Below, piece by piece: positions 31,143 to 63,669 of a stretch of 64,000 nt of DNA. Made by a program: the position numbers and the translations under genes. This DNA is from an uncultured Cytophagaceae bacterium (GTDB taxonomy: Bacteria > Bacteroidota > Bacteroidia > Cytophagales > Spirosomataceae). The stretch covers positions 1 through 64,000 of the forward strand of contig CAIVPF010000063.1 in NCBI GenBank assembly GCA_903907745.1. Direction: 5' to 3'. Under the pieces are notes generated by a model. That model ran no database searches. It was not told where the DNA came from and saw only the letters and a list, made by a program, of their open reading frames with translations. The first letter of the stretch is position 1. Each line of letters begins with the position of its first letter.

Positions 31143-31177
31143 TACCTTTGTCAATCCTTGCCGGTTTGACAAAGGTA
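31143..31177 (-). repeat. 35-bp hairpin element, copy A
   Basis: TACCTTTGTCAA-TCCTTGCCGGT-TTGACAAAGGTA; 12-bp perfect arms; loop is the reverse complement of copies B, C and D. Confidence 0.95.
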
Positions 31178-31234
31178 AGTTGGGAAAATAGGTTTGTCAA
31201 ATCACTAAGTTGATAATTTCATCCTCGCCTTTCC

Positions 31235-31269
31235 TAGCTTTGTCAAACCGGCAAGGATTGACAAAGCTA
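31235..31269 (+). repeat. 35-bp hairpin element, copy B
   Basis: TAGCTTTGTCAA-ACCGGCAAGGA-TTGACAAAGCTA; 12-bp perfect arms. Confidence 0.95.
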
Positions 31270-36610: not shown

Positions 36611-38086
36611 ATGAACAACAGTATTTGGAGAAAAAAACCGATGCATATGTTTGAGCAGGACATGCAAAAAAGTGAGCTCAAGCGTGTATTAGGTAAATGG
36701 AGTTTGACGGCGATTGGGATCGGCGCGATTATTGGTGGGGGTGTATTTGTGTTAACGGGAACGGCGGCGCATTTTCATGCGGGTCCTGCTTTGGCGCTTT
36801 CCTTTATTATTGCGGGTATAGGCTGTATTTTTGCGGCATTGTGTTATGCGGAATTTGCGGCGATGTTGCCGGTGGAGGGAAGTGCGTATGCGTATGCTTA
36901 TGGAACGGTGGGTGAATTATTTGCTTGGATTATTGGTTGGGGTTTGATTTTGGAATATGCGATGGGAGCGATGACGGTGGCGGTGAGTTGGTCTGGTTAT
37001 TTTAATAAGTTGCTGCATTTATTTGGGGTGCATTTGCCGGCTACGTTGACGAATGACCCGATTTCGGCGGGGGCTTTGTTGAATAATAGTGAGGGTCCGG
37101 TGATGTCGGTGAATTTGCCGGCATTGGTGATTGTGTGGTTTGTGACGTGGATATTGGTGAAGGGGATTAAAGAGGCGGCGAGTGCGAATAATTTGATTGT
37201 GGTATTAAAAGTGGCGGTGATTTTATTTGTGATTATTATGGGTGCTTTTTACATCGATGTGGCGAATTGGACTCCATTTATTCCGGAGGAGACCTTGGTG
37301 AAGCATGAGAATGGGGATATGCTTCCGGCTTATGGTTGGGGTGGTATTATTTCGGGGGCATCGGCGATTTTCTTTGCGTATATTGGATTTGATGCGGTTT
37401 CGACCCAGGCGGGAGAGGCGATTAATCCGAAGAAAGATATGCCCTTTGCGATTATTGCATCGTTGTTGATTTGTACGGTATTGTACATTGCGGTTTCCTT
37501 GGTATTGACGGGGATGATTAATTACAAAGATATTACGGGGGATGCGTTGAAGGCGCCGGTGGCGTTTGCATTTGATCATGTGGGCCAGCCTTGGGCGGTA
37601 TTTGTGATAACGGCGGCGGCGACGGCAGGGTTGTTGTCGGTGATGTTAGTGATGATGTTAGGTCAAACGCGTGTCTTTTTGGGTATGGCGAAGGATGGTT
37701 TATTGCCAAAATTCTTTGCAGAGGTGCATCCTAAGTTTAAGACGCCGTGGAAGTCGACGATATTAGTGGGCGCTGTGGTTTCTGTGGTGGCTGGATTTAC
37801 GCCGATTTCATTGTTGGGTGATATGACTAGTTTTGGAACTTTATTTGCTTTTACGATGGTATGTTTGGCGGTTTGGATTTTACGTTTTCGTGATCCGAAT
37901 CGGGATCGTCCGTTTAAGGTGAGTGGTTTGAATATTGTGGCGCCGTTGGGAATTTTGGTGAATACCTTTTTGATTTTGAATTTGGGTCGTACGGCACAAA
38001 TTTTCGCGATGCTTTGGTTGTTTTTCGGCTTGTTTGTTTACTTCCTTTATGGAAGGCCGAAGTCTCATTTAAATACGAGAGAGTAA
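36611..38086 (+). CDS. APC family amino acid permease
   Basis: GIGAIIGGGVFVLTGTAA; 12 or more TM helices; 491 aa. Confidence 0.92.
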   Translation: MNNSIWRKKPMHMFEQDMQKSELKRVLGKWSLTAIGIGAIIGGGVFVLTGTAAHFHAGPALALSFIIAGIGCIFAALCYAEFAAMLPVEGSAYAYAYGTVGELFAWIIGWGLILEYAMGAMTVAVSWSGYFNKLLHLFGVHLPATLTNDPISAGALLNNSEGPVMSVNLPALVIVWFVTWILVKGIKEAASANNLIVVLKVAVILFVIIMGAFYIDVANWTPFIPEETLVKHENGDMLPAYGWGGIISGASAIFFAYIGFDAVSTQAGEAINPKKDMPFAIIASLLICTVLYIAVSLVLTGMINYKDITGDALKAPVAFAFDHVGQPWAVFVITAAATAGLLSVMLVMMLGQTRVFLGMAKDGLLPKFFAEVHPKFKTPWKSTILVGAVVSVVAGFTPISLLGDMTSFGTLFAFTMVCLAVWILRFRDPNRDRPFKVSGLNIVAPLGILVNTFLILNLGRTAQIFAMLWLFFGLFVYFLYGRPKSHLNTRE

Positions 38087-38090
38087 TTGG

Positions 38091-38119
38091 AAAAGCCCCC
38101 GAGATCGGGGGCTTTTTTT
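38091..38119 (+). terminator. Rho-independent terminator of the permease gene
   Basis: AAAAGCCCCCGAGATCGGGGGCTTTTTTT. Confidence 0.92.
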
Positions 38120-38132
38120 ATGGGGTGGAATT

Positions 38133-38640
38133 TTTGGCAATCCTGGGTGGTGGAATTTTTGGCAATCCTGGGTGGTGGAATTTTTGGTAATCCTAGGTGG
38201 TGGAATCTTTGGCAATCCCTTGGTGGTGGAATCTTTGGCAATCCTTCACATTTTATTTGGATTCGCCTTTCACTTGCGAGGTTTGCCAAAGTTAACCTCA
38301 AGAATTCCAAGCTCAGGGAGAACCTTTGTCAAACCTTGATACTTTCGTGTATTTAAACCTCACTGGCTGAGGATTGACAAAGTTTACCCCTTTGGCAATC
38401 CGTGGCGGTCTTTGGCAATCCGTGGCGGTCTTTGGCAATCCGTGGCGGAATCTTTGGCAATCCTGGGGTGGTGGAATCTTTGGCAATCCTTCACACTTTA
38501 TTTGGATTCACCTTTCACTTGCGAGGTTTGCCAAAGTTAACCTCAATAACTCCAAGCTCAGGGAGAACCTTTGTCAAACCTTGATACTTTCGTGTATTTA
38601 AACCTCACTGGCTGAGGTTTGCCAAAGGGTTTGGTTTGCC
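38133..38640. repeat. Compound repeat array left of prfC: tandem TTTGGCAATCC boxes plus inverted pairs of 59-bp hairpins, duplicated with 245-bp period
   Basis: Hairpins at 38233-38291, 38324-38382, 38478-38536, 38569-38627; boxes start at 38133, 38158, 38183, 38208, 38234, 38391, 38411, 38431, 38453, 38479. Confidence 0.92.
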
Positions 38641-38690
38641 AAAGGTCTAGTTTACCAAACCTTGCGCATTCTTTTCTCAAGATTTTGGCG

Positions 38691-38698
38691 TATTTTTG
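38691..38698 (+). promoter_or_regulatory. -7 box (TATTTTTG) upstream of prfC
   Basis: TATTTTTG 17 nt before ATG 38716; no clear -33 element at ideal spacing. Confidence 0.4.
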
Positions 38699-38715
38699 TG
38701 GCTTGATTAGATACT

Positions 38716-40308
38716 ATGCAGAAGCTGGAAGCTGAAATTGCCAAACGAAGGACCTTTGGGATTATCTCACACCCGGATGCGGGAAAAACAACCTTGACGG
38801 AGAAATTGCTCCTTTTTGGGGGTGCGATTCAAACGGCAGGGGCGGTCAAATCGAATAAAATCAAGAAAGGCGCAACGTCCGATTTCATGGAAATCGAGCG
38901 CCAAAGGGGTATTTCCGTAGCGACCTCCGTGATGACCTTTGAATATAACGATGTTAAAATCAATATCTTGGATACGCCGGGTCACAAGGATTTTGCGGAG
39001 GATACCTATCGGACCTTGACGGCAGTTGATTCAGTGATTTTGGTTATTGATTGTGTGAAGGGGGTGGAGGAACAGACGGAGCGATTGATGGAGGTGTGCC
39101 GAATGCGAAAAACCCCAGTGATTATTTTTATCAATAAGATGGATCGTGAGGGTCGAAATCCCTTTGATTTATTGGATGAATTGGAACAAAAATTAGGCAT
39201 TTCGGTACGGCCTTTGACCTGGCCGATTAATATGGGTCAAAATTTTAAGGGAGTTTATCATTTGTTGGATCGTTCATTAAATCTATTTTCGGCCAATAAA
39301 ACGAAGATTGAAAAGAATGTAGTATCTGTAGATATCGCAAGTCCTGAATTGGATGCGCGGGTGGGAGCGCGAGATGCGGCGCAATTGCGGGAGGATGTGG
39401 ATTTGATCGAAGGGGTTTATGAGCCATTTGATCGGTCGGATTATTTATCGGCAGATTTGGCACCCGTGTTTTTTGGTTCCGCGGTGAATAATTTTGGGAT
39501 TCAGGAGTTATTGGACACCTTTACAAAAATCGCTCCATCGACACAGGCACGCGCCACGGATATTCGATTGGTTCAGCCGGAGGAAAAAAAATTCACGGGA
39601 TTTGTGTTTAAGATACATGCGAATTTGGATCCCAAACATCGGGATCGAATTGCATTTTTGCGGATATGTTCGGGGGTGTTTCATCGGAATACGTTTTACC
39701 AACATATACGCTTGAAAAAAAATGTCCGTTTTGCGAATCCCTATAATTTTATGGCGCAGGACAAAGAAGTCGTGGAAGAGGGATTCCCAGGTGATGTGAT
39801 AGGATTATATGATACGGGGACCTTTAAGATTGGGGATACCTTGACGGAGGGTGAGGTGCTGAATTACCAAGGTATTCCGAGTTTTTCACCGGAGATATTT
39901 AAGGAATTGATCAATTTAGATCCGATGAAATCGAAGCAATTGGAGAAAGGCATAGATCAATTAACCGATGAAGGGGTGGCTCAATTATTTACCCAACCGC
40001 AACTAGGCAATCGGAAAATTGTAGGTACAGTGGGTGATTTGCAATATGAAGTGATTCAATACCGCCTAGAACATGAGTATGGGGCGAAATGTCGGTTTGA
40101 TGGGATGTCGGTGACGAAAGCCTGTTGGATTACCTCCGAAGATCCTAAAAAGCTTCAAGAATTTGTTCGCTTAAAAGGACAAAACATTGCCCAAGATAAG
40201 GATGGTAATTATGTGTTTTTGGCGGAATCCGACTGGATTTTGCGGATGAATCAAACGAATAATCCGGAAATTATATTTCATTTTACCTCGGAGTTCAAAT
40301 TGGCCTAA
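38716..40308 (+). CDS. prfC: Peptide chain release factor 3
   Basis: [45 protein letters not shown]; 530 aa. Confidence 0.97.
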
Positions 40309-40333
40309 GGCCCATTGGCAATCAGGTGGTATC

Positions 40334-40738
40334 TTTGGCAATCCGGCGGTATCTTTGGCAATCCGGCGGTATTTTGGCAATCCGGCGGTATCTTTGGCAA
40401 TCCTCTCCAATTCAGTTTGAAGACATATTTTGCTGGCAAGGTTTGCCAAAGTTAATCTCGCGACACTACACTTCCCAACCTTTGTCAAACCTCGCAACGC
40501 ATCCGTATAAGTGATTTGAAAGGGTAAGGATTGACAAAGTTTACTCCCTTTGGCAATCCGGTGGTATTTTTGGCAATCCGGCGGTATCTTTGGCAATCCT
40601 CTCCAATTCAGTTTGAAGACATATTTTGCTGGCAAGGTTTGCCAAAGTTAATCTCGCGACACTACACTTCCCAACCTTTGTCAAACCTCGCAACACATCC
40701 GTATAAGTAATTTGAAAGGCTAAGGATTGACAAAGGTA
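40334..40738. repeat. Compound repeat array right of prfC: tandem TTTGGCAATCC boxes plus inverted pairs of 60-bp hairpins, duplicated with 196-bp period
   Basis: Hairpins at 40392-40451, 40480-40539, 40588-40647, 40676-40735; boxes start at 40334, 40354, 40373, 40393, 40549, 40569, 40589. Confidence 0.92.
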
Positions 40739-40740
40739 TC

Positions 40741-42483
40741 CTACACCAAATTCAAATCCCTTTGAATCATCTTCACTTTATCCTGCAATTGAGAAAAAGT
40801 TACATCAAAATCCCCAGCTGACGCCAAAGCGGCATTGACCGATACATAAAATTTAATCTTTGGCTCCGTGCCCGATGGACGCGCGGAAACTTTGGAACCA
40901 TCCGCTAAAATCAATTGAATCACGTTCGATGCCTCTATACCCCGACCCACCGGAATAGCGCTCACCGCACCCGTCTCTAAATCGGTCGACGTAAGTCCCT
41001 CATAATCCAATACCCGAACCGGTTTCGAACCAGCCACCGAAGCCGGTACATTCGAGCGCAAATTCATCATCATTTGTTTAATCTCCTCCGCCCCAGCCTT
41101 TCCTTTTTTAGTCAAGGAGATCAGCCCCTCGTAATAAAAATTATTCTCCATGTACATTTCAGCCAAGAAATCGAACAAGGACAGCCCCTGATCTTTCGCA
41201 TATGCCGTCAATTCTGCTATCATCGCACAGGATGCCACCGCATCTTTATCCCGCACCGCATCGCCGATCAAATAGCCATACGATTCCTCACCCCCTCCTA
41301 AAAATCGCTCTTTGCCCTCTAATTCCCGAATTACCTGCGCAATAAATTTAAACCCCGTCAGTGTATTGTAACAAGGCACCCCTCGTTTAGCACACATTTT
41401 GTCAATCAAATCCGTAGTCACAATCGTTTTGGCCACAAATTCATTGCCTTTCAATGGACTCACTCTAAGTAAATAATATATAATCAAACTGGCCATTTGG
41501 TTTCCGTTCAATAATTGCCATTCGCCCGTCGGACTCTTCACCGCCGCTCCCACTCGGTCCGCATCAGGATCTGTCGCAATCACCAAATCCGCATCCAATT
41601 CCTTCGCCTTGTTCAATGCCAAAGTCATCGCTTCTTTTTCCTCTGGATTGGGATACACAACTGTAGGGAAATTCCCATTCGGTTCCGCTTGTTCCGCCAC
41701 CACATGTACCGCCTCGAAACCTAATAGCGCCAATGCCTTAGGCACCAAGGTTATTCCCGTGCCATGAATGGGAGAAAACACGATTTTAAGGTCTTTTTGG
41801 CGTTTGATGACTTCGGGTTGCCGACAATTCGTACGAATCGTTTTTAAATATGCCTCATCGATCGACTCATCCAACATATGCAATAAGTCAGGATTTCCCT
41901 CAAATTTTATATCTGTGATACTTTGAATCGCATTTACCTCCGCCACGATGTTTTTGTCATGCGGCGCTACGACCTGAGATCCATCAGACCAATAGGCCTT
42001 GTAGCCATTGTATTCCTTCGGATTGTGTGAAGCCGTAATGACTAAACCGGCTTGGCAACCTAAATGTCGAACCGTAAAGGACAATTGTGGCGTCGGCCGA
42101 AGCGCAGGAAATAAATACACTTCAATGCCATTTGCCGTAAAAATATCGGCAGCAATACGAGTGAATTCAGGTGAATTATTACGTGAATCATGCGCGATAG
42201 CAACTTTGATGTTTTGGCCCGGAAGACTTTTCAATAAGTAATTGGCAAATCCTTGCGTCGCTGCACCCACCGTGTAACGGTTCATACGATTACACCCCAC
42301 ACCCATTTCGCCACGCATTCCCCCTGTCCCGAATTCCAAAGATTTATAAAATGAATCCGTCAGCGTCGTCTGGTCCCCCTTTTCTAAGAGTCCCTGCAAG
42401 ATGGATTTTGTTTCTACATCATATGGGCCAGAAAGCCATTGGTCGATGTTTTTTTGAGTAATTGCGTCGAAAGTGGTTAACAT
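40741..42483 (-). CDS. Phospho-sugar mutase (phosphoglucomutase/phosphomannomutase family)
   Basis: VITASHNPKEYNGYKAYW; ATDPDADRVG; GGGEESYGYL; RPSGTEPKIKFY. Confidence 0.95.
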   Translation of the reverse strand: MLTTFDAITQKNIDQWLSGPYDVETKSILQGLLEKGDQTTLTDSFYKSLEFGTGGMRGEMGVGCNRMNRYTVGAATQGFANYLLKSLPGQNIKVAIAHDSRNNSPEFTRIAADIFTANGIEVYLFPALRPTPQLSFTVRHLGCQAGLVITASHNPKEYNGYKAYWSDGSQVVAPHDKNIVAEVNAIQSITDIKFEGNPDLLHMLDESIDEAYLKTIRTNCRQPEVIKRQKDLKIVFSPIHGTGITLVPKALALLGFEAVHVVAEQAEPNGNFPTVVYPNPEEKEAMTLALNKAKELDADLVIATDPDADRVGAAVKSPTGEWQLLNGNQMASLIIYYLLRVSPLKGNEFVAKTIVTTDLIDKMCAKRGVPCYNTLTGFKFIAQVIRELEGKERFLGGGEESYGYLIGDAVRDKDAVASCAMIAELTAYAKDQGLSLFDFLAEMYMENNFYYEGLISLTKKGKAGAEEIKQMMMNLRSNVPASVAGSKPVRVLDYEGLTSTDLETGAVSAIPVGRGIEASNVIQLILADGSKVSARPSGTEPKIKFYVSVNAALASAGDFDVTFSQLQDKVKMIQRDLNLV

Positions 42484-48464: not shown

Positions 48465-48499
48465 TACCTTTGCCAAACCGGCAAGGATTGGCAAAGGTA
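48465..48499 (+). repeat. 35-bp hairpin element, copy C
   Basis: TACCTTTGCCAA-ACCGGCAAGGA-TTGGCAAAGGTA. Confidence 0.95.
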
Positions 48500-63634: not shown

Positions 63635-63669
63635 TAGCTTTGGCAAACCGGCAAGGATTGCCAAAGCTA
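63635..63669 (+). repeat. 35-bp hairpin element, copy D
   Basis: TAGCTTTGGCAA-ACCGGCAAGGA-TTGCCAAAGCTA. Confidence 0.95.

Follow-up and report, generated by a model that had tools for sequence, protein, structure and literature searches.

A hairpin array beside prfC in a freshwater Cytophagaceae bacterium, probably a long-loop REP cluster of a RAYT/REP system

A pattern in which each type of REP goes with a cognate RAYT is known from Proteobacteria, and the BIMEs of Escherichia coli are bound by host proteins. In Pseudomonas fluorescens SBW25 there are tandem clusters of REPINs that include the flanks, and the spacers are conserved in length but not in sequence (PMC3116915). The loops of the GTAG and CGTC families are sometimes long, with an inner region of up to 27 bp in GTAG-14 (PMC3733652). 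Most Bacteroidetes-specific RAYTs have been assigned to subclass 2.6 (group 5), for which 'atypical secondary structures' are described (PMC6006769).

The array described here lies between the convergent genes prfC and a pgm-like gene, in a stretch of 64,000 nucleotides (the window) from an uncultured freshwater bacterium labelled Cytophagaceae. We read it, with a probability of about 0.86, as a REP cluster of a RAYT/REP system (a REPtron) whose transposase gene is found elsewhere, on contig C44 of the same genome. It is a known kind of repeat, but in an unusual long-loop and tandemly amplified form. The genes and the parts of the array are the following.

38716..40308, + strand: prfC (peptide chain release factor 3), flanked by arrays (NCBIfam TIGR00503, 666.6 bits, above the cut-off)
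40315..40403, + strand: tandem single-arm repeat with a 20-bp unit, TTGGCAATCCGGCGGTATCT, about 4.5 copies, without palindromic partner (TRF)
40392..40451, + strand: candidate long-loop REP unit I, T.T type, copy 1 (RNA fold z -3.0; covariance model R1 65.8 bits)
40452..40479, no strand: spacer of 28 nt between units I and II (unit coordinates)
40480..40539, - strand: candidate long-loop REP unit II, A.A type, in opposite orientation, copy 1 (RNA fold z -2.6; R1 61.9 bits)
40548..40599, + strand: second module, single arms repeated in tandem every 20 bp, 2.6 copies (TRF)
40588..40647, + strand: unit I copy 2, same sequence as copy 1
40676..40735, - strand: unit II copy 2, interior 33/36 against copy 1
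40741..42483, - strand: phosphohexomutase (pgm/glmM-like), convergent with prfC (best NCBIfam matches below their cut-offs)

All four 60-bp hairpins that the first-pass annotation had placed at 40392-40451, 40480-40539, 40588-40647 and 40676-40735 are present, and its plan of inverted pairs holds, with units I (+) and II (-) alternating. The spacer measures 28 nt as it had said, and its period of 196 bp agrees with TRF, which reports 40353-40735 with period 196 and 97% matches; in a module alignment the two modules are identical at 165/168 positions (98%). The end motifs, which it gave as 13 nt, are exactly 12 nt long and become 13 only with a flanking T/A, and its interiors of 34 nt are 34 between the 13-mers and 36 between the 12-mers. 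The distance of 3 nt to the pgm-like stop codon is true of the annotated end at 40738; counted from the end of the last arm, at 40735, to the first base of the stop codon, at 40741, the gap is 5 nt.

The 12-nt unit ends read CTTTGNCAA[A/T]CC ... GG[T/A]TTGN'CAAAG. Unit I is CTTTGGCAATCC-36 nt-GGTTTGCCAAAG and unit II is CTTTGTCAAACC-36 nt-GGATTGACAAAG, and the ends pair except at position 10, where a T.T mismatch in unit I and an A.A mismatch in unit II serve as an orientation marker; stem position 6 is G-C in unit I and T-A in unit II. A tandem run of one arm, in 20-bp copies, comes before the units. Chance does not explain such arrays, since the arm counts far exceed the shuffled expectation: with at most one mismatch TTTGGCAATCC occurs 33 times in the window against 3.1 expected (0/100 shuffles), and CTTTGTCAAACC 19 times against 0.46 expected in the shuffle control.

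The same arm sequence is found in the palindromes that flank the single resident RAYT gene elsewhere in the genome. The canonical palindrome of this family is 29-35 bp long with a 5-nt loop, is specific for the genus and occurs in tens of copies per genome. Its form, CTTTGNCAA[A/T]CC-5 nt-GG[T/A]TTGN'CAAAG, has 18 exact copies in the own genome, where a covariance model finds 99 matches at E <= 1 (27-99 across seven genomes). We found the canonical pattern in 11 of 38 searched genomes of the genus, in 0 of 61 genomes of other genera and, in its exact form, in none of the viral contigs searched; the named carriers among the matches listed are MAGs labelled Cytophagaceae and one labelled Spirosoma fluviale. 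The copies are intergenic in 78 of 86 classified cases (relatives and window), although about 92% of the sequence lies in open reading frames. In a set of 180 distinct copies, taken from the window and from relatives, N-N' in the stem is G-C in 122, C-G in 51 and T-A in 6; the stem positions thus covary, and it is pairing, not a fixed sequence, that is kept. In the flanks of these copies the stem extends outward as TA[C/G] and the 5' side is C-rich, and no guide tetranucleotide like GTAG shows in their composition on that side. A counterpoint to a REP identity is that single arms in tandem, which stand without partners at C73, C94, C112 and in both prfC arrays, are not palindromes. The window holds these canonical copies:

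31143..31269, no strand: canonical REPIN with REPs at 31146-31174 (T.T) and 31238-31266 (A.A) (one DNA hairpin, -40.3 kcal/mol, z -11.6)
48468..48496, + strand: canonical single REP (A.A)
63638..63666, + strand: canonical single REP (A.A)

The REPIN is 127 nt long and sits between convergent genes, of which the right one is nadA. REP clusters are also seen near an apparent 3' end of rRNA genes at contig ends (L010:1-330, the start of C73 in the own genome, and L028:1300-1759, the end of C74).

The RAYT gene was revealed by translating the DNA between inverted REPs about 800 bp apart, and encodes 203 aa. A Pfam Y1_Tnp search of the whole genome missed it and gave zero matches, and its score is below the curated Pfam cut-off; it matches NCBIfam REP_Tyr_transpos with E 6e-7, likewise below the curated cut-off, and 20 of 20 aligned homologues match too. 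H62-F-H64 (HxH) and a downstream Tyr133 are invariant in these 20 homologues. An AlphaFold2 model has a mean pLDDT of 81 and a pTM of 0.83, and a fold search of the PDB with this prediction gave a sole significant match, 4ER8 (E 2.6e-6, prob 1.00), which is a REP-associated tyrosine transposase bound to a REP hairpin; a profile search of PDB sequences gave zero matches. Because the arms match the palindromes flanking the RAYT, and the RAYT fold matches 4ER8, we take units I and II to be REPs. They would be long-loop (34-36 nt) REPs in opposite orientation, and the pair would be an inverted doublet of the REPIN/BIME kind.

Homologues of the RAYT at 72-100% identity occur in ten congeneric genomes, the own genome included, and in all ten there is a T.T REP about 100-155 nt 5' of the gene and an A.A REP 21-24 nt after the stop, in opposite orientations. 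REPs are present in 10/10 genomes with this RAYT and in 1/28 without it (Fisher p 2e-8, which overstates the co-distribution because the species are related). RAYTs with 32-57% identity elsewhere in the genus have other flanking palindromes, e.g. AGATTTGACAAC.., AGCTTTACTAAC.. and AACGCTGTCAAGG.., and the type of REP is matched to its cognate RAYT within the genus. The lone exception to the co-distribution is G011, with REPs and a distant RAYT only, in an assembly that is 84% complete. As a side observation, the congeneric RAYT loci L271, L277, L286 and L285 have their own palindrome pair per lineage.

A further array lies on the other side of prfC, between the classical terminator of the upstream gene (~38090-38117) and a promoter-like TATTTTTG just 5' of prfC.

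38124..38245, + strand: 25-bp tandem single-arm repeats, 4.8 copies (TRF)
38233..38382, no strand: pair 1, unit I 38233-38291 and unit II 38324-38382
38390..38463, + strand: 20-bp tandem single-arm repeats separating the two pairs (TRF)
38478..38627, no strand: pair 2, unit I 38478-38536 and unit II 38569-38627 (hybrid 3' arm)

The hybrid arm in unit II of pair 2 has the end GGTTTGCCAAAG, and lone arms follow 3' of this pair at 38633 and ~38650. The modules of this left array share 176/186 identities (95%). Long-loop units are found in three related species only: eight here, all beside prfC, six in the sister species G036 (four beside prfC, on both sides, and two at another site) and one in G025. 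They score 57-69 bits in a covariance model across seven genomes, against at most 44 for short-loop copies. At L291:2207-2456 (G036, C2) a long-loop unit is followed by tandem copies of its interior and 3' arm with a 47-48 bp period, a second case of one-arm expansion.

The first-pass annotation had seen the same architecture with different interiors on both sides of prfC, and had taken this to suggest that the arrays were assembled from modules rather than copied from a single ancestor. Their grammar is indeed shared, but the left units are 59 bp and not 60, with a spacer of 32 nt and a period of about 245 bp. The difference between the interiors is also real, as an alignment test found no significant similarity between central interiors at different sites, and total unit length nevertheless stays at 58-60. 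With blastn, an alignment of the two arrays gives 70-76%, largely from the shared arms and layout, and the interiors are found at no other locus of the 2.79-Mb genome, where the arms alone recur (blastn and covariance model). It is the suggestion of modular assembly that is not supported. At the same site, interiors are orthologous between the own species and G036 (29/38 for right I and 26/36 for left II, with p <= 0.001 for the central parts), and both units have all four of their arms unchanged between them, at a divergence that leaves third codon positions of prfC 67% identical. Modular assembly, with end motifs recombined with new fixed-length interior cassettes, is not needed, because both arrays pre-exist in the sister species and the loops drift at about the neutral rate with arms unchanged; unrelated interiors of constant total length would suit it, but the interiors are inherited vertically and change about as fast as third codon positions do, loci within a genome share none of them, and neutral loop drift accounts for the pattern, so that we find it very improbable. 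The arms would instead be constrained or homogenised, and the loops would drift with their length kept. The left-right difference can be plain age, and both an ancient single ancestor of the two arrays and independent seeding by REP arms are possible.

The prfC-pgm gap is a repeat-accumulating site across the genus. In a comparison from which the values for G000 and G022 were left out (spurious ORF; prfC end undetected), congeners without the REPs of this family (family A) have a classical A-tract/T-tract hairpin directly 3' of prfC, in several of them the terminator alone; six congeners have a different palindrome in the gap (AACGCTGTCAAGG.., the flanking type of another RAYT lineage) and most of these keep a normal terminator; species with family A have REPs or other palindromes there. 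In the own gap, inspection and a terminator scan found no GC-rich stem with A/T tracts, and there is a single run of five T; the scan is insensitive, since it also missed the evident terminator at 38090. The array hairpins are not GC-rich stems followed by a T tract, and a search of 38050-40800 against Rfam gave only sub-threshold matches. The long-loop pair I+II has the inverted orientation of REPs as in a REPIN and folds modestly better than shuffles (z about -2.3, against -11.6 for the canonical REPIN at 31143), into a single hairpin with RNA parameters (z -2.2) and into two separate hairpins with DNA parameters. In G022 (L132:3496-4398, C55) a gene for a PIN-domain-like product of 154 aa lies between two REPs of the gap (Pfam PIN E 0.015, under the cut-off), and the prfC flanks of relatives (L222, L223, L225, L234) have further palindromic repeats, CCCAGACTAAAGTCTGGG, CCCTAGGCTAAAGCCTAGGG and GGCGCGAAAAGCGCC, in the same gaps.

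A role in ending transcripts is conceivable because no classical terminator is left in the own gap, and the hairpins might then be kept as a bidirectional terminator, or as a stabiliser of RNA 3' ends, between the convergent prfC and pgm. The terminator after prfC in congeners without this REP family, and folding of the units beyond that of shuffles, agree with such a function. We still consider it unlikely, as the left array lies between a classical terminator and the promoter-like region of prfC, where none is needed, no U-tract follows the hairpins, the number of units differs between sister species, and most of the six congeners with a different REP in the gap have a normal terminator as well. 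The 12-nt arm could also be the site for a nucleoid or regulatory DNA-binding protein, which would make the arrays multi-site platforms and the palindromes secondary. The partnerless arms in tandem would be natural on such an account, and so would arms that stay unchanged at the divergence seen in prfC, but with irregular arm spacing (20, 25, 28, 36 and 47-48 nt), covarying stem positions and co-occurrence with the RAYT-flanking copies it becomes improbable. We would give hardly any credence to a MITE reading, in which the elements are non-autonomous ends of an ordinary DNA transposon with no relation to a RAYT: short elements that end in inverted arms and are dispersed between genes are what it predicts, but in ten species the RAYT gene has one and the same palindrome pair at its sides, and analogous pairs accompany the other RAYT lineages. 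Three further candidates were rejected, integron attC sites (the 60 bp would fit) by reading, as there are no RYYYAAC/GTTRRRY boxes, CRISPR since the units are inverted pairs and not direct repeats with unique spacers, and two fused 29-bp REPs (58 = 2 x 29) by reading, the interior being without trace of inner arms.

If the array is a REP cluster, its history would have begun with the arrival of REP hairpins in the non-coding gaps on either side of prfC, probably through the resident RAYT, whose substrate would be single-stranded REP DNA with CTTTGGCAA[A/T]CC hairpins. Whole doublets were then duplicated in tandem together with their flanks, as the modules of 196 bp and about 245 bp show, and the near identity of the modules marks this as recent. 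Single arms may have multiplied by 20-25 bp at a time, probably through slippage between them, and recognition or concerted evolution would hold the arms as the loops drift at constant length. A host role, e.g. in stopping transcription of the convergent genes prfC and pgm, would be secondary. As neither excision nor insertion nor an empty site was observed, we only infer that the long-loop form is mobile; a comparison of the site downstream of a photolyase gave no clean empty site, since the gene order differs. It seems to us hardly probable at all that the long-loop REPs make up a mobile class of their own, in which the RAYT would move a cargo that varies but keeps a fixed length, set between constant arms, and each array would record independent captures of ~24 nt.

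With the REP reading, an anonymous repeat array is tied to a defined transposase family, in a Bacteroidota RAYT group that is little studied. One genus with several RAYT lineages, each with its own palindrome pair, offers a natural series for RAYT-REP co-evolution and specificity, and the flanks of prfC illustrate how a REP may turn into a tandem satellite: the arms stay constant, the loops drift at a fixed length and duplication goes step by step.

The system resembles TnpAREP subclass 2.6 (RAYT group 5; PMC6006769) in its Bacteroidota host, its single-copy HuH tyrosine transposase, its C-terminal SS motif and YIH.NP, and in flanking atypical structures with copies elsewhere in the genome. 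The motifs are NH[FY]H, YIH[VAT]NP and WSSY here and NH[LIV]H and YIH[QN]NP in the table for the subclass, which we assign tentatively, by motif (PMC6006769). GTAG does not define this subclass, because it is reported as atypical; the passages on it contain neither structure sequences nor the long-loop units and single-arm satellites found here (PMC6006769). Like the GTAG and CGTC superfamilies, the repeats are intergenic palindromes of 20-40 bp with dimers in opposite orientation and clusters, but no GTAG or CGTC tag was detected beside the stems (PMC3733652). Alternating orientation and an intergenic position, often 3' of genes, are shared with the BIMEs of E. coli (general background; PMC6006769). 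The inverted REP doublets, and near-identical tandem doublets with their flanks, recall the REPINs of SBW25, where spacer length and folding are conserved (PMC3116915). Phylum and REP sequence differ from those of SBW25, there are tens of REPs here against more than 1000 there, and each REP at the prfC loci, unlike those of the SBW25 REPINs, has a 34-36-nt loop of its own (PMC3116915).
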